Of a DNA stretch of 64,000 bases, positions 4,161-63,898 are shown in pieces; positions within the stretch are counted from its first letter, which is position 1, and each line of letters opens with the position of its first letter. The stretch is from Hypomesus transpacificus (Eukaryota; Chordata; Actinopteri; Osmeriformes; Osmeridae), in contig NC_061061.1 in the NCBI RefSeq assembly GCF_021917145.1, positions 14,981,705 to 15,045,704 of the forward strand, in the 5' to 3' direction. The position numbers and the translations under genes were made by a program. The notes under the pieces were generated by a model. The model made no database searches, had not been told where the DNA came from, and worked only from the letters and a program-made list of their open reading frames with translations.

Positions 4161-7100
4161 TTAGTAACGCTCTTTAGGTTCACTGAACTTGCGTCTCTTT
4201 GGTGCCACAGATGGGACCTCTTGGCTGCAGGGGAACTCAAACTGGGACATCTACCAATCACAGAGGAGGTGATCAAGTCCACAGTTAACACAAGAGTTTG
4301 CTGCAATTTTAGTTGAGCTATTGGGGGGAATACTATGTTCAAACAATGGGTTAAAAATTCCTATTGAACAATATGGAAACTAATTATTTAAATTGGTGCT
4401 ATCGAACCTTTCAAGCTAACAAATACCACACTACATGCACCATGCTATACAGAAGGACTGAAGCAATGGAATTTTACGTGACAACAACCAATATGCTTAC
4501 CATTTTTTCTTGGACATGGGAGGACTTCATCTTGCTGACGCTGTGCACCTCTGTTTTCCCCTTCCTCTCCTGCACAGGAAAAAGACACGAGCAGTAAATC
4601 ACACAAGTGAAACCCAGCCAACTCAAAAGAACTCAGTAACTACCTCCGTTGTTACTACAACCCACCATTAATGTTTTCAGGTCATAGAAAACACATTTAA
4701 TTAGCTGTAACTGAGGGGATTAAAAAACAGAAGTCATGTGAGAAGAATAAAATGTAAACTGACGGTAGTCGACTGGATGACACGTCCACTCCTCGTCCTG
4801 CTCAGGGTCATCTCCTGGTCAGAGGTGTTCTTTACCACCATGTCCATCTGAGACACGGTGATGAGGGGAAGTGTCAGGATTACTGATATTGAATAACATG
4901 GAGCCTTTCAAGCTCTAATTCCTGTTTTCACTGTGACACAACTGACACACTCACCTGAGAGCGTTCCGTGGTTGTCTCGCATACTTCAATATTCTTTTGG
5001 CAGCTCACCAGGATATCTGTCAAGGGAGTTGTGTGAAAAAGACAGTACAAAGTGAGATGGGCGTCAGACTGCAATTGATAGGAAATGCACTGTCTGCAAC
5101 TGAGTTTGGCAAGGAACAGCTATGTGGAGCTCTTACCCGAGTTGTCAAAGTTAAGGTTGTTGTTTGGATCATCCACGTCCTTTATGATTGGATCATACAT
5201 TAGAAATAATGGTAAATTAAACACCTGGTGATGTCTGGCTATTGTTAGTGATGTAATTCTTCTACACCCATTATACTGCATTATGTTAAACCTTGTAATA
5301 TACTCAGAGCTTGATAGACAGAAATGTTGACATAACTTACTATTGTTTATCACATAGAACTGTGTCAGCTCTATGTAAAATCTATTTTCCTTTCCAGGGA
5401 ACCCAAGGTCTACCTCATACTTGCTGATCTGTCTCACAGTCCCCTCCTCCGCCATCTTCAGCGTCCACTTGTCTCTGACACAGACAGGTTTATCCTCATC
5501 CACCTGTGAAAAGTGGGTACCATAACTGTCAATCGATTCGCATTCAGACAGCAGTAGCATTGCAGTCATTTGATGCATATTCAACTCCTTATTCAAAGTA
5601 GCATTCAGTATATTCGAAAACCCGGTTCAAATCGCCCCCACGTCCAGCCTTACCTGTTCGAGCCTTCCTCTCTCTGTGGTCACGTCCATCTTCAGTGTGT
5701 GGAAGGGAGTGGCCACTTCACCCATGGTCAACCTGACAGGTTCCTTTTCAAACTCTATACTGTCGCTGTCTCCTTCCTTGAAGCCAGGAGGCTGGTAGTC
5801 TTCGGGGGTAACTGAGATGGCACACACACACACAAATGCTAGACCACAAAATAATAAATAGACTCTATACAAGAGGTACACTGAAGAGGGGTGTTGCTTA
5901 CCGTTGTCATAGTAGGATAGTTTCATATTGAGACAGACACTGTCAGGCAGGGGACCCAGGTTTTGCATAAGCGTATAGAGCTTACGCACCAGCAGGATGC
6001 TGGCCTTCTTAGTGTTGCCGCAAGCCATCATGGACACTGTATTACTGTTTTTGCTTAATGGAAAGGAAATATTTTCGAAGATAAAAATAATTGTCATGAA
6101 ATATTAACCGATTGCGGATTTACAAGTCAATAAAGCATCAAACCTTTCAAAGTCCATCTGAGGTCCCTTGTCAGTGTACTGTATCCTGAACTGGTAGCAT
6201 TCTGTTACCTTCTACAAATGGTTAAGACCAAAAACAAGTCAAAGTAAAGGTCTTACCGTCTAGAATTGTGGTGATTATTATCAACATAATGTTTGATGTT
6301 ACCAAGGTTTGCATCTTACCTTTGGATTATCTTGATCTGTATATATCTAGAAGGTGGCAGGTGAACACAGATTTAATGAAAACAACAAATGATTAAATCA
6401 AGGTTCACTTGCCAAAACATGAAATTATAATAACTTGTATTTAGTTTATATTAAACATAGTTTCATGTTTTGCATGTACTTACAGACAGGACCACCATTC
6501 GCAGCTATCAGATGGACAAGAACATGCATCAAAATATGTGACAAAAAAACAAAACATACCTAACTCAGTTATTCTGTCCAACAACTCCATGTAATGACTT
6601 ACATATTTCCGCTGAAGGGCATCAAAACATCCTTGCATCCTGTCCGGTAATGTTAAAAACCAAAAGAAGAAGAAAAAAAGAAAGAAAAGTGAATTTATAC
6701 TGAATGATCTAACATTTCAAGGGAACACTTCCATTCAGACAGACAGAGTGAGTGACTCATCAAAGTGTCCTGACACTGTTGCTTTAAGACCAGTGTGATC
6801 TCGCCAAGATAGAATTTCACTCAGTCTCCTTCTGGCCTTTGAAACATGATAGAGCTTTGGCTCAATATCATAATCATAGGCTATTGATTTTATAATGTCC
6901 TACTGAGACTAGATACTGACCACTGTACAATCTGACTGGCACCAGGGCAGCTGCGCTCCTCCCTAAGGATCATCACTTTTTGCTCTGTGGGAGAGGTGGA
7001 GGGATGGCAGGAGAAAATGCAAGCAAAAGATATCTCTAAATCAGATTTCCCAAATGCTCCATTCAAGATTATACAGTGGCTTTAATAGTAATAAACATTT

Positions 7101-32600: not shown

Positions 32601-33002
32601 GAACTCAGATCAGGCATGAATTTATCAGAGAAAGAAAACAGGAGTAAAGTTAGGGAGATAGGAAAAGCATGGTTCCAATGACCAATATCATGACATAGAC
32701 ATTCAGTAGCGTATCTGTAACCATGGGTCAGACAGTCAAATGGTCAGATTCATTCAAATGACGACCACTAGGTGTCATCGTTTCCTTACAGCAGTTCCAT
32801 TCCCTGATGGCAGTTTGAATCCTGATGAGCACATGGATGGTCCCATCACTCCCTACACCCACCCCCACTCTCCAGTGATTCACAGTCACTCTTGCAAAGC
32901 CCAAATAATAAAATGCTGACCTCTCAAAACGCTGCCAGTATCCGTGTCTCGGCATCGCAGCCTAGAAGCCTGGCACACCAGAGACAGGGAGAGGGACAGA
33001 GA

Positions 33003-33200
33003 AAGGAAGAGAGAGAGAGACATAAGGAGAGGGACAGAGAGAGGACGAGAGAGAGAGACATAAGGAGAGGGACAGAGAGAGGACGAGAGAGAGAGGCATA
33101 AGGAGAGGGACAGAGAGAGGAAGAGAGAGAGAGAAAGAGAGACACAAGGAAAGGGACAGAGAGAGGAAGAGAGAGAGAGACATAAGGGGAGGGGGAGATA
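33003..33200. repeat. Purine-rich minisatellite, 38-bp unit
   Basis: Units start with CATAAGGAGAGGGACAGAGA at 33021, 33059 and 33097, continue with a CACAAGG variant at 33143 and end with CATAAGG at 33181. Spacing is 38, 38, 46 and 38 bp. The 46-bp unit carries an extra 8 bp of GAGA sequence. Nearly every base is a purine on the plus strand, so triplex DNA is possible. Long frames across it on both strands are artefacts. Confidence 0.85.
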
Positions 33201-35126: not shown

Positions 35127-35320
35127 TTACATTTACATTTAGTCATTTAGCAGACGCTCTTATCCAGAGCGACTTACAGTAAGTACAGGAACATTCCCCC
35201 CAAGGCAAGTAGGGTGAAGTGCCTTGCCCAAGGACACAACGTCATTTGGTACGGCGGGGAATCGATCCGGCAACCTTCTGATTACTAGCCCCGACTCCCT
35301 CACTGGTCAGCCATCTGTCC
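35127..35320 (-). mobile_element. tRNA-derived SINE, copy 1 (minus orientation)
   Basis: Read on the minus strand, a tRNA-like head with a B-box relative (GGATCGATTCCCCG) comes first. Then come the body (CCTTGGGCAAGGCACTTCAC on that strand) and a tail with TCTGGATAAGAGCGTC and GCTAAATGACTAAATG. The same layout appears at 36314-36508 and 58630-58817, which defines the family. Limits are set by the homology between copies. Confidence 0.8.
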
Positions 35321-50138: not shown

Positions 50139-50895
50139 TCATATTGTTCCCTCCTCTACCAGTTTGTTGAGTCCATTGCAGATCTTGATAAGGTTGGGCC
50201 GGAAGGGGCCATCTGGGTCATACAGCTTAGTCAGGAGCTCTGGGTCAGCGTAATGGTTGAACACATGGTTGATGCGGCCATGAGATTTGGCTGTGAGGTG
50301 AATGTTGACCAGCTTCAACAGCAGGTCCCTGCATCCTGTTAAGATCTCTGACATCACGGTCTTGTCAAAGGTGAACTCCACCTACACCACAGGAAGTGAT
50401 AGTCATGTAATTACCGTGGGATTTCAGCTTTATAACAATATGCCCGTCGTCTCAAATTTTTGCATTACTATCATCACATTGATTGATCCTCTTAAATGGT
50501 ACCCTTTGTCATTGGTTATCTAGACATTGAACTACACATGCTAAACATGAAACAAAAACTTTCGGGGGGCTTTTTACCTCATGGAAGCTAATGGCTGTCA
50601 TGGCTCCTTGGTGCAACTTCTTCTTGAACTCTTGAGCCAAACCTAGTTCGCCTGCATTGAAGCGGTTGTGTCTGAACAGCACACCAATCTTCACTGCAAT
50701 CTTGATCATATCTTTTATTACCTTCTGGGCCTCTGTACGATTGCCAGTATACTCTTTAGACACACGGTAGAGCTCATCCATGATCTCACTGCTGTTGTCG
50801 TCAATAAACATGTTGACCATGGACTTGTTAGCCATGTGGCTGAGGATCTTCTTCTGGGCCTGCATGGCCATGTCTTTGGAGCTAAAGGACTCCAT
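50139..50895 (-). CDS. tnfaip8l2: TNFAIP8L2 (TIPE2), TIPE-family lipid-transfer immune regulator
   Basis: Two coding exons (50578-50895, 50139-50381) give 186 residues; the human protein has 184. TIPE2 is a cytosolic six-helix protein with a hydrophobic cavity that carries phosphoinositides and restrains innate and T-cell signalling. The start [19 protein letters not shown] matches human closely. [40 protein letters not shown]-like [16 protein letters not shown], and [13 protein letters not shown] follow the family to its end. A CTCAG acceptor lies 6 bp before the ATG, so there is an upstream noncoding exon that I cannot place. The intron falls after SFHE, before the VEFTFDK block. Orientation relative to lysmd1 is as in human. 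Among TIPE paralogues the N-terminal MESFSSK favours L2. Confidence 0.93.
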
Positions 50896-57604
<6,709 letters not shown>

Positions 57605-60600
57605 TTACAGTATGCAGCAGGAAGTGCTACGCAAGGGCAGGTTGGTGGGTAGCTTGGCATACTGCTGCCGGAAGCTGTTTCTCTTGTTCAACACAGGGGC
57701 TGCATTCTCTGGCTTTCCCACTAGGGGTGCACTTTCCTGCACAGCATTCACTTGGGGTGCCTCAGGCTTAGCCCCTTTGTTGTTCTTAGTCTTTTTGGCT
57801 TTCTCCTTCTCCTGGGGCTCAGCTGAAACAGAGGGGGCCTCAGTGTTGCCTTCTCTCTGGGGTAAGGTTTCTGCAGGCATATCGGTCGGTGTGGGCTTTC
57901 TCTCTGCCTGCTCCTCATTGGGGATGTTGAGGTTGGAGGTGGAGCGCTTGGTGTTAGTGCAGGTGGAGCTGTTGACACACATACACAGTAAGGCTTAAAC
58001 AATAGGAGGGATGCTGCATCTGTCTACTATAGAAAGGTTGCTAATGTGGAGGTTTCCAACTCCAGTCTAACTGTAGTCTCCCCTTCCTTTCACTCCCCCT
58101 TTCCTTTTCTCTGCTCACCCTTCCTCCCCTCCTCTTCCACACTCACCCATGTGAGCTCCTGTCCTCTGAGTCTTTCTGTTCACTGCTGTAGCGCAGCTCT
58201 GCTGGGGTCTTGAACGAGAGGTCTTTTTTCCCTTTCAGCCAATAGGTTTTCATTTGGCCTTTACCCTGGGTTTAAGCAAAATCAATTATTGACTTACTGC
58301 TGTCATTTACTTTCTGTAATGCCAGTGAAATGTATGTTTATTGATACAAAAAGGAGTATTATGAAACAGAATGCTATTGTGGTATGTAGTTTTTTTCTTC
58401 AGTGTCAGTTGGCCCAGCATTCTTAAATATAAAAACTGACCTTGACAAATATCTTGCCCCTCTCCTCGATTATATAAGGCTCGTGCTCCAGATGATCTTT
58501 GGCGGTCTGGCTGATATGTATCTGCATACCCTTTATACACAAATAGTCAAAGGTTAAAGACTAACAGAAAGTAAAACATTCAGTCAGTCGTTACCACATA
58601 GCTAAGCCATAACAATAACAAAATAGGTGGTCAGATGAGTGAGCGGTTAGGGAATCGGGCTATTAATCAGAAGGTTGCCGGTTCAATTCCCGTCCGTGCA
58701 AAATAAGTTGTGTCCGTGGGCAAGTCACTTCACCCTACTTGCCTCAGGGTGAATGGGCCTGTACTTACTTTAAGTTACTCTGGATAAGAATGGATAAATG
58801 ACTAAATGTAAATGTAAAAACATATTGGAGCTTGTGGCAACATTCCTTACCACCCCATTGCTCTCCATGCGAGAGGCAGTATTCACTGTGTCTCCAAACA
58901 TACAGTAGCGAGGCATCTTTAGTCCTACCACCCCAGCAACCACCATGCCTGAGTGAATACCTACAACACATAATCAAACAAATAAGTTACCAATCTAATT
59001 TCTCAATATGGAAAAAAGCTATACCGTGAACATCATTTTATAGATTTTTACCAGGGTCAGAAAGACGATACTGTAAATTTGGAATGCCTAATGTGTGTAT
59101 TAGTATATTAGTGTTGGTATCAATATAAATTGGCACTTTCGAACTAAGATGTCTTTTCAATGGAAAATCTGTTTATTTAGATGTCCAGCTTGTCTTGCTA
59201 TTGTGTATCTTTGTGCTCACCGACTCGGATCTGAATGTTGTCCCCAGTGGAGGGGTCTTTGAGGTGGTCGATAGAGCTCAGCATGTCCAAGGCCATGTCA
59301 CATATGTGGTGGGCATGGAATGTGGTCTTGTTGGGCACACCTGCTACCACCATGTACGCATCTCGGATCGTCTCTACCTGGTAAGATTAAGTTTGGTTCA
59401 GACTAGCTGCTGAAAAAAACGTAATTTTCTACATCAGTATAACCACAGAACAGTTTAGTGTGGGGACCTTGGATTTGACAGTCAGCATAGAAATGCAACA
59501 CAATGTGAATCTAGTGGGTTTCCGGGACAAAATCAAGGCCCAAAAGAATAATGGAAAAAGTATTGTGGATGTTGCTATCATTACACATTTATTGATTCCA
59601 AGTCTTAAAAAAAATAAAAATATATTTTAAATCAAATCAAATGTATTTTTATAGCTATTTTTACATGCAAGCATGTCACAGAGGGCTTCACATACGCCCA
59701 TAGAACTGCCCCTTTAAAGATCAGAATCCTTGAAAACAATAGAACACTTCTTGAATTTCGATTAGAGGTTAAACAGTACCACCACAAATCTATTTAGGGC
59801 ACATAAGCGATTTTCCCCTTTTTGAGACTGAAATTGACAATTTCAGAACAGGACATAACATCTAAAGGACCATATAATGGGAATAACAGTCGTGATTGTT
59901 TTCACCTTGTACACGTTGTGCTTCTCACTAAGCGTGTCAAAGACGATGTAGATCTCATTGAGCATGTCCACCACCTGCATGGGCGTAATGTGGATGCAGA
60001 TTTCATTGAACTTCACCACGTCGCTGAACAGGATGGTTACATCTGGGAAAACCTGGCAAGAAAAGGCAGGAACAGTCACCTTGCAGTGTTCAGCAGTTTA
60101 CCGTAACAGTTTAATGGGTATTTTTAGATCTGATGAAGGGCAAGCCATAATACCTATAGAATATAGGAGAGGTTTACAAAAAGGACTGAAGTAATAGCAT
60201 GCTCTTTGTGAAATATACAATATATTTTTAAGATAAAGCCTGAATCATTGCAGGGTTCATTGGCCCTAATAGCAACAACGAAAATACACCAAATTACAAA
60301 AGACTTCTCTGAAGTTTTTGAAAGAAAACCAGTTGGTTTGCATCCATGTAGCTCTACATGTTCCAATGTCTGTCTGTTACCTGACAGGTCTCCAGGGCAG
60401 TGATGCCCTTCCTGAGACGGTCGGCCACAGCCTTTGGGATCATAGCATAAAGCAGGGAATCCCCCCTTTTTTTCTCCTCGTCCAGCTTCTTGATGATCTC
60501 CATCAACTGGGCATACTTCTGCTGCTCCTGTAGTTGTACACAAGGTTGAGAGACACTCGAGCATATACAATATTCCTCAGCTTCTTTAGGCCTAAGCTTT

Positions 60601-63600
60601 TCATCTTATTCATGTGGCAAAACATTCTTTTCATGCACTGTATCTGTACGTGCAATGTAAGAGCCAATATTAGTGTCGGCATAATATTTATACAAACAGT
60701 ATTGTGGAACCCCTAAAGGGACATGAGCGACTTGAATTATAATTTATTTATCATTTATAAATATTATTTATTTTCATTGTAGTTAGTCATCGTAGTATCG
60801 AGATCTCACAAGACAGTTTCACGTGTGTAAGACAAGGGCATATTCTAATGGAAAATAGGTGGAACGCGCACGGAATGGTACCAGTAAAATAAATAACTGC
60901 TTTTCCTGTTACAAGAAGAAATATGTTACCTGATCCAGAGCCAACTGCAGTTCAGCCGACTGCTGCGTACCAGCTAAGATGAGCTCTCTGCTAGAGTCAT
61001 GGAGGTTTAAGTCGTTCACATATACCCCCATTTTAATCATGTCCTCCACGGTTTCTATGCTGCATGAACAAAAGGGAGTAAGAGGACAAGGCCCCAGAAT
61101 AGGAGAATAGATCAATAGAAAACAGTAGTGTGGGGAAGTAAGACAGTGTTGAGGTGACACAGGTTTGTGTAAACAGTTTTTTTTAACAGCATTCTAAGAT
61201 TGACTGAATTTCAGTTCTTGATTTATGTAACTGTAATTTACGTTTATACTTGTTTTCTTAAATATTGTGAAGGATCTTACATGGGGGTGGAAAGGAAAAT
61301 GAGAGAGTCCCACTGAGGGACATACTTCATCTGACCCTTCAAGTGGAGGGGCTTCTTCGGGGGTTCCCTCATATCCTCAAAGATGGTTTCACTGCACTTC
61401 CCTGGACATGATAGAGATCAAAACCTGTGTGTGATTGACATCTGAATGATTGAAGTGGTTTTTGAATAGAGAATAGATTCTCACCAGTGACAGTCTGGAA
61501 GGCCAGGAGCTCAATGTCCTCGCCTCCAGAGTTGGCGGAGCTGTTGTATTGAGTTAGGGCACCACTGTACTCCTGGTCCGTTCCCTTCATATCCTCCACG
61601 GACTTCACATCTAACGGTGGTAGGGATGAATGACTGAATAAATGAGGAAAGAAAGGCTTCGAGAGGGGAAGTGAATCGATGTGTGAATGAGTGAGTGAGC
61701 AAGCGAGTGAGTTATGACTGAGTGAAGGAGTTAGTTGTGAGTGCCTGAGTGAACCACGGCAACATGAGTGAATGTGCAACTGATATGCAAGCAAATGTGT
61801 GAGAGACCGATACAACATAGATTTTTTAATTGCAATTGTTATTGATAACTTTATCCATCATCTTCTCATAGACATCTTAAATGACATGTTGTAAGTCAGT
61901 TGAGTGAATGGTTGGTATGGAAAAACAACGGTTGAGGTACTCCCCTTTCTTTTCGGCTGCCTGTGTGCAAAGTCGGAGTAGGGCATGGACCCTTGCCAAC
62001 TCGGTACCTCTCTCTTCCTCTCGATTCACTTTCTCGCACTCCTCTTTCTCCTCAGGCTCCTCCTTACTCAGTTTTGGGATGTTGACCTTCTGTTTGCTCT
62101 CTACCACAGCTTTGGAGAGCAGCTCAAACACATTGTTCAAGTGGGTATAGATCTAAGGGAGCAGAAACATTGGCAGAAAACAGAAATACTAATATGAAGG
62201 TGTAATTCAAAACGACCATGTAACTACATAGCATTACCTACTGTAACAACATGCTAGACTGGTGTAGAGGTACAATATATTACAGTGAAACAGGAAGTAT
62301 AGCTTTCCATGGCCAATTGGATGCTAACTTTGGTCTTGTTTAGGTAATTACATGGAACATGTAATTTCCTTTAAATCTAGACTTACATTTTCCCAGCTAA
62401 ACTCCAGCATGGGTCGCACCAGGGTGAACTCCTCGTTGACCTTCTTGCCCTGCAGATCGGAGAAGACCTCCTTCAGGCCATCGCCGATGCGATACATGGT
62501 CATGTCCCGTCGGAAGATGACACTAAAGGGGAACATGTCGAAGAATATGCCCCTCTTCATTGGGAGCTTCTCATAACCAGGGGCTGTCTTCTGTTGAGGC
62601 ATGCGGTGCTTGAAAGCAGCATTGTCAAAGTTCATCTTATAGATCTGTGGGTGGATAAAGTACAGGCGATGGTAACTGCAACAGTACAGCTGTGAGGCAT
62701 TAGAGTTAATCCAGTGGTGGTTTGACAATGGAGCTGATATCACTACAGAAGTGATACATTTGTGTCAAACAACAGATTATTCCAGATTTCCTAGTCAATG
62801 CCAACCTAAAACCTGGATAAGTCCTGTCCAGTCACAATGACCACGCACCATTGGCCAGGAAAAAATACTCCTTTCCTAATCCTTACCACATATGTCATTT
62901 TCTCAGTCTCCTCTTTTGACAGGATTTCCACTTCAATGTCTGTGTTGTAGAACTGTCGTCCCACTTGGGAGAGCTGGCCTGTGTCAGTAGAGGAGGAACA
63001 ATCATCATGAGGAACCTGGCGGCTCCGATCAAAATCTCAACTGTAGACCCAGGGTTTCCACTGTCACATACCTTTGACAAATTGGGTGAACCCTTTGCGG
63101 GTGCTGCGGTAGTGCAGTGTGAGGCTAGTCTCACACTCCTCCTCCACACAGAAGCTAGGCGGCTGCACCTTGGGGAAGGAGAAGCGGAAGTACTCGTGCA
63201 GGTTGTCCAGTTCATTGATGAAGTCACGCACATTACGCCCCAGCACCTGCCACAGATAGGAAATTATATATTCAGACATCTTTCGTATTGGCTGGGATGC
63301 AATGTACTTCAAATACAAATCAGGAAGTTTAATGTTTGTGCGTTTGTCTGACATGAGAGTCTTGTATTAAATATTGAATTCATCCTTCATAAAATTGTAA
63401 TTTTTCATAGATTGCTATTAATTCCGAAGGTTGCAAGTCCACCTTCAGAATCCTCTCATAGCCATAGTTGCCGATCCTCTTCACCATGTAGACTCCAAAG
63501 GCATACATCAGCTCGTCGTGGGTTTTCCCCAGTACCTCGCCAGCTGCCTTGGCTAACCGTAGGATGAGGTTGTCACTGAAAAAAAAAATAAGAAATCTAC

Positions 63601-63898
63601 ATCACTATAGGCACAGCTTTCTATATTGCGTTAACATCCAAGTTTACGACTCAAAATATATTTATTTTCATGTTAAAGCGACAAAAAGTGAAAAAAGTAA
63701 CCAACATCGTGGTGATTAATGTGAAAGAGCATGACGATGACCGTACTTGTACATCTGATGGCGGACAAACTTCAGATGGGGTATTTCTGCTCTGGCCTCA
63801 ATCAGTCTCCATACATCCTCCCCATAGGACTCATTGATGTAATCATTTACTGCTTCCAAGTACAGGCCGTACATCTTAAGGGGGTTAGGGACCTCCAT
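57605..63898 (-). CDS. Atypical soluble guanylate cyclase, Gyc-88E-like
   Basis: Sixteen exons, high to low: 63747-63898, 63443-63575, 63072-63246, 62887-62978, 62387-62644, 62008-62152, 61485-61610, 61281-61401, 60930-61059, 60381-60527, 59906-60052, 59221-59377, 58851-58960, 58441-58530, 58147-58265, 57605-57968. The product has 821 residues and should make cGMP from GTP under haem-gas control. Domains: H-NOX (about 9-190) with proximal His112 (NLHEYF) and Y141-x-S143-x-R145; HNOXA/PAS (about 225-430) with an acidic, low-complexity insert; a signalling helix (about 425-480); cyclase domain (about 490-665) with metal residues Asp504 (ILFSD) and Asp548, and the Asn-Arg of [26 protein letters not shown] is far closer to Drosophila Gyc-88E than to GUCY1B1 or GUCY1B2. 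Both metal Asp in one chain would allow a homodimer. Odd points are Arg547, where Gly is expected, and an unrelated 120-residue tail ending CCIL. The MEV start has a good context; MYGLYL at residue 9 is the alternative. Confidence 0.9.
58630..58817 (+). mobile_element. tRNA-derived SINE, copy 3 (plus orientation)
   Basis: The head carries GAGCGGTTAGGGAATC and the B-box GGTTCAATTCC, followed by the body and the tail TAAATGACTAAATGTAAATG. It belongs to the family of the copies at 35127-35320 and 36314-36508. It lies in intron 13 of the cyclase gene, antisense to it, and its tail ends about 30 bp from the exon 13 splice donor. Confidence 0.82.
59630..59712. repeat. Fragment of a dispersed fish repeat
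   Basis: The text AAATCAAATCAAATGTATTT, then a TTTTTACATGCAAGCATGTC section and a CACAGAGGGCTTCACATACG section, resembles a very common teleost repeat that begins ATCAAATGTATTTATATAG and has GTCACAAAGTGCTTTACA. It lies in intron 11 of the cyclase gene. The class is unknown to me and the ends are approximate. Confidence 0.5.

Follow-up and report, generated by a model that had tools for sequence, protein, structure and literature searches.

The closest known systems to the gene analyzed here are the atypical soluble guanylate cyclases (sGCs), represented by Drosophila Gyc-88E (with Gyc-89Da/Db), Manduca MsGC-beta3, and C. elegans GCY-31/GCY-33. Fitzpatrick and others described an O2-regulated basal clade with a Tyr in the predicted distal heme pocket, where β1 and β2 carry Ile, and the same source reports active Gyc-88E homodimers (PMC1435932). 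In flies, Gyc-88E reportedly functions as one half of heterodimers with Gyc-89Da/b (PMC9075734). Four human subunits, α1, α2, β1, and β2, are listed in a review that also mentions an extra C-terminal isoprenylation sequence in β2 (PMC8200204); three human sGC orthogroups have been counted elsewhere (PMC10073611), and the human β2 gene is on chromosome 13 (PMC11432225). In pikeperch, a gene has been annotated as "soluble guanylate cyclase 88E-like" (PMC12673963), and therefore this kind of cyclase is already known in a fish. Among the matches listed in searches of the open-access literature, one fish paper names such a gene, and no study of the enzyme, its structure, or its partner was found.

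The window, a 64,000-nucleotide stretch of the Hypomesus transpacificus genome, contains on its minus strand a 16-exon gene (57605..63898, read from 63898 to 57605) that encodes an 821-residue protein and a stop codon in a single open frame. Exon boundaries were placed by hand at GT-AG sites. None of the 16 exons has an internal stop in the called frame, and an in-frame stop lies upstream of the first ATG. The initial annotation of the locus gave the same coordinates and protein length as this hand-built model, and all four peptide blocks that it quoted are present in the protein. Most of the H-NOX domain is encoded by exons 1 to 3 (63898-63747, 63575-63443, and 63246-63072), and its end and the HNOBA region are encoded by exons 4 to 10 (60381..62978), comprising exons 4 to 7 (62978-62887, 62644-62387, 62152-62008, and 61610-61485) and exons 8 to 10 (61401-61281, 61059-60930, and 60527-60381). 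The cyclase domain lies in exons 11 to 14 (60052-59906, 59377-59221, 58960-58851, and 58530-58441), and exons 15 and 16 (58265-58147 and 57968-57605) encode the end of that domain, a low-complexity tail, and a C-terminal CCIL. Pfam matches to HNOB (residues 10-171; E value, 5.5e-51), HNOBA (212-482; 3.1e-69), and Guanylate_cyc (493-673; 9.9e-67) fall in one chain, in the order found in soluble guanylate cyclases.

A spliced alignment guided by a provisional, non-database Gyc-88E sequence recovered 14 exons, of which 10 agreed with the hand model at both ends and 4 (exons 1, 6, 8, and 15) disagreed at one end. Exons 7 and 16 were not recovered in this alignment and are also missing from the provisional guide, as is a Glu-rich insert at about residues 293-360 (62086-61485). 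The best-scoring solved chains for the whole protein were human and moth β1, and the H-NOX part alone scored 115 bits with cyanobacterial Alr2278 versus 87 to 93 bits with the β1 chains. An NCBIfam search returned a single weak match, far under the cutoff.

Across the window, Pfam also matched Bcl-2 (MCL1-like), tropomodulin, SCNM1, TNFAIP8, and HORMA domains, and a LysM match fell slightly below the cutoff. The TNFAIP8-family gene (50142..50937) has PF05527 in two open frames and, like the HORMA match at 5630-6103, is on the minus strand; the latter is perhaps part of a HORMAD1-like gene. The gene order resembles human 1q21.3, a resemblance that was set aside as evidence of descent and retained as a lead only. 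The window also contains a UnaL2 LINE 3' element (35137-35190, minus strand), a purine-rich tandem array (32980-33193) with periods of 38 and 84 among others, and, downstream of the cyclase gene, a TC microsatellite of 55 copies (54696-54806). The neighboring genes mark the host as a vertebrate, and the UnaL2 element suggests a fish, most likely a teleost.

H-NOX cyclase genes were searched for across the same genome (assembly, 437 Mb). Contig C22 holds a β1 gene whose product is 90% identical to human β1, adjoined by an α1 gene (69% to human α1), and contigs C12 and C15 each hold a β2 gene, 73% and 68% identical to a provisional, non-database rat β2 and 70% identical to each other. The window protein is 37 to 39% identical to these two β2 proteins, 35 to 36% to the α1 and β1 of its own genome, and 36% to both human and moth β1, which are 62% identical to one another. 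A further gene was found on contig C1. In a main tree of 10 proteins, all of whose letters came from tool outputs, with exon choice in the C12, C15, and C1 models steered by provisional, non-database proteins, the window protein grouped with the C1 protein at a support of 100/100, as did the β2 pair, the β1 proteins, and the α proteins, each among themselves; the 88E pair joined β2 at a lower 86/88. A tree of seven tool-derived rows placed the window protein outside the human and moth α1/β1 group (96/93).

That the window gene is simply gucy1b1 or gucy1b2 is extremely improbable. The domains are common to both, and a CaaX end is β2-like, but separate β1 (C22) and β2 (C12 and C15) genes are present, and forcing the window protein together with β2 (p-AU, 7e-41) or β1 (p-AU, 7e-4) in the 10-protein tree was rejected. 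As an independent check, the printed zebrafish gucy1b2 primers (PMC4480006) were translated in their β2-compatible frames; they encode NQLKEG and WMESLN, for each of which the best match anywhere in the window protein was 3 of 6 residues. An identity as gucy1b1, gucy1a1, or gucy1b2 was ruled out by the separate genes and the trees. The initial annotation had assigned the gene to a type outside vertebrate α, β1, and β2 and had named a position inside GUCY1B1 or GUCY1B2 as evidence against this; the 10-protein tree bears out the assignment, and the AU tests reject the alternative position.

The sequence comparisons make it highly probable that the gene encodes an 88E-type soluble guanylate cyclase. 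The window and C1 proteins are 51% and 54% identical, respectively, to Gyc-88E, and the family name is partly provisional because the Gyc-88E sequence compared did not come from a database. When two provisional rows, Drosophila Gyc-88E and rat β2, were added to the tree, the window protein, C1, and Gyc-88E grouped at 100/100; within this group, neither the pairing of the window protein with Gyc-88E (p-AU, 0.061) nor that of C1 with Gyc-88E (p-AU, 0.153) was rejected. Domain trees built without C1 joined the window protein to the provisional Gyc-88E at 99/97 (H-NOX) and 74/78 (cyclase), and a nine-row tree that included two short cyanobacterial rows did so at 91/98, with weak support for the deeper branch. 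A scan for relatives in prokaryote contigs found one cyanobacterial cyclase, and the scan of viral contigs found none.

The second 88E-type gene, with catalytic changes complementary to those of the window gene, is new here. It lies at C1:3743330-3738553, with its tail near 3737702, and its product is 58% identical to the window protein (349 of 597 residues). Its core frame is free of stops in a gene model that is uncertain for the short exons of the insert region. The GT-AG introns of this model are a built-in trait because the program that made it permits GT-AG alone. Five consecutive C1 exons (147, 147, 157, 110, and 90 bases) match window exons 10 to 14 in length. TNFAIP8 neighbors beside the C1 gene would have suggested a whole-genome-duplication pair; the genome has at least eight TNFAIP8-family matches, and among the eight listed none is on contig C1. 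Reading frames that by eye look ARL3-like, profilin-like, and RBM22-like flank the C1 cyclase (C1:3731922-3734596 and C1:3751513-3752269).

Six catalytic residues are present in the window protein: Asp504 (codon at 60022-60020, minus strand, as for all codons given here), Glu544 (59374-59372), Asp548 (59362-59360), Cys614 (58904-58902), Asn621 (58883-58881), and Arg625 (58871-58869). Their roles are assigned from class III cyclase structures. Beside the metal-binding Asp548, the protein has Arg547 (59365-59363), whereas Gly occupies this site in every one of the other 10 cyclase rows with tool-derived letters. The changes in the two 88E-type proteins are complementary: the window protein has MPRYC..TVN..ASR but VETIRDAYM, whereas C1 has ILFSD and GDAYM but MPRYG..TVH..ASA, with Gly, His, and Ala for Cys, Asn, and Arg. 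With the α rows and C1 set aside, all seven remaining tool-derived rows, one of them the window protein, have the catalytic Asn and Arg, both of which are missing from all three α rows; the first metal Asp is missing from all three β1 rows.

Loss of activity in a gene decaying toward a pseudogene would be another explanation for Arg547, a radical substitution at a site that does not otherwise vary, and no such subunit appears in the human counts of PMC10073611 and PMC8200204. However, 16 exons with splice signals and 821 stop-free codons argue against decay, which we consider quite improbable. The initial annotation had also supposed that mammals lost this cyclase; that supposition is in line with the same human counts, a comparison drawn from the literature.

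The complementarity of the window and C1 proteins parallels the α/β division in ordinary sGC and suggests a heterodimer, a reading to which we give an even chance. A homodimer is the principal alternative. The initial annotation had proposed an O2- or gas-sensing, Gyc-88E-like cyclase, of a type that can work as a homodimer, and the complete set of six catalytic residues on a single chain, an intact heme site, and the homodimers reported for Gyc-88E (PMC1435932) are consistent with this proposal. Yet Arg547, the complementary C1 gene, and, for O2 sensing, a Phe in the distal pocket speak against it. Homodimer action of the window protein is doubtful because of Arg547 and the C1 gene, and we regard the proposal as a whole as unlikely.

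The heme-ligating His112 (63198-63196) and the YxSxR residues Tyr141, Ser143, and Arg145 (63111-63097) are retained in the window protein. At the distal-pocket site, it has Phe151 (63081-63079), C1 has Tyr, and all five tool-derived β1/β2 rows have Ile, so the window protein lacks the Tyr reported for the O2-regulated basal clade. The missing Tyr bears on O2 sensing, a functional trait, and leaves the position of the protein in the tree unaffected. O2 sensing by the window protein is doubtful because of Phe151. The O2 sensing supposed in the initial annotation is weakened for this protein and fits the Tyr-bearing C1 better.

The same pocket could instead indicate an NO- or CO-responsive cyclase, without the Tyr and in this respect like β1 and β2, and loss of the Tyr has been linked with NO ligation (PMC1435932). 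However, Met81, Arg84, Ile85, and Gln155 depart from β1 at aligned sites, Ile85 being at the site of the NO-linked Cys78 of β1. Retention of the second β1 cysteine depends on the alignment, as window Cys128 falls opposite either Cys122 of human β1 or Arg121 of chain 9oxn_B. This reading appears rather improbable.

The window protein ends in CCIL, a CaaX-like sequence with Cys818 at 57619-57617; an ending of the CaaX type would be expected from the composition of the protein in about 6 of 10,000 proteins. Unspliced open-frame readings downstream of the gene cores end in CNLL and CVLL for the two β2 genes, in both cases right after Arg-Phe, and in CSVS for C1, after an AG acceptor. The window protein, C1, and both β2 genes thus seem to end in a prenylation motif. 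The C1 tail is the least sure of these because the same scan also gave three chance-like CaaX hits, two short ones next to β1 and a third within the window. Given the likely prenylation motif at its tail, the enzyme is probably at the membrane.

Taking these features together, we lean slightly toward explaining the window protein as a membrane-anchored, 88E-type, catalytic β-like partner of C1 in a heterodimer. From this one genome, we infer the dimer partner, the activity, the gas, and the membrane anchoring as follows. In the window protein, a linker joins the N-terminal heme H-NOX sensor to a class III cyclase domain, and the tail probably holds the enzyme at a membrane. The window protein would most likely be the catalytic, β-like partner and C1 the other chain. 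The single live active site would be a composite, with metal-binding aspartates contributed by C1 and Cys, Asn, and Arg by the window protein. Its mirror counterpart would be inactive, and the window protein's own metal loop would be unused and free to drift; Arg547 beside Asp548 could be tolerated for that reason. Gas would set the cGMP output, O2 acting via the Tyr-bearing heme of C1 and perhaps NO or CO via the Phe-bearing heme of the window protein.

A broader and more tentative possibility, which we put somewhat short of an even chance, is that fish have a third sGC system beside α/β1 and β2: a membrane-anchored, obligate 88E heterodimer that would combine one O2-type heme with one altered heme, would have split its catalytic residues independently of α/β1, and would be absent from mammals. 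If the heterodimer reading is true, catalytic division in the style of α/β1 arose twice in animal soluble cyclases. According to a single-author 2025 paper (PMC12755159), the direct O2 receptors of vertebrates have yet to be identified, and O2-regulated cyclases of the insect type that fish retained would be candidates. At the same time, a fish protein labeled "88E-like" need not bind O2.

Comparison with known systems places the window protein closest to the atypical sGCs of the Gyc-88E group, with which it shares six catalytic residues in one chain and Ile85 in place of the β1 Cys78. It differs from them in Phe151, in Arg547, in the Glu-rich insert, and in having a paralogue without Cys, Asn, and Arg. 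That paralogue, in turn, shares with the window gene the run of five equal-length exons but, unlike the window protein, retains both the Tyr of the distal pocket and the Gly that precedes the metal Asp. With GUCY1B2, the window protein shares the retained metal Asp of ILFSD, and the tail of the window protein, like that of GUCY1B2, carries the apparent prenylation motif. The NO-sensitive α1/β1 sGC, encoded by a separate gene pair on contig C22, has the same domains, and like it, the window/C1 pair divides catalytic residues between two chains. The division differs in detail, in that β1 is without the first metal Asp, whereas the window protein is instead without the Gly.
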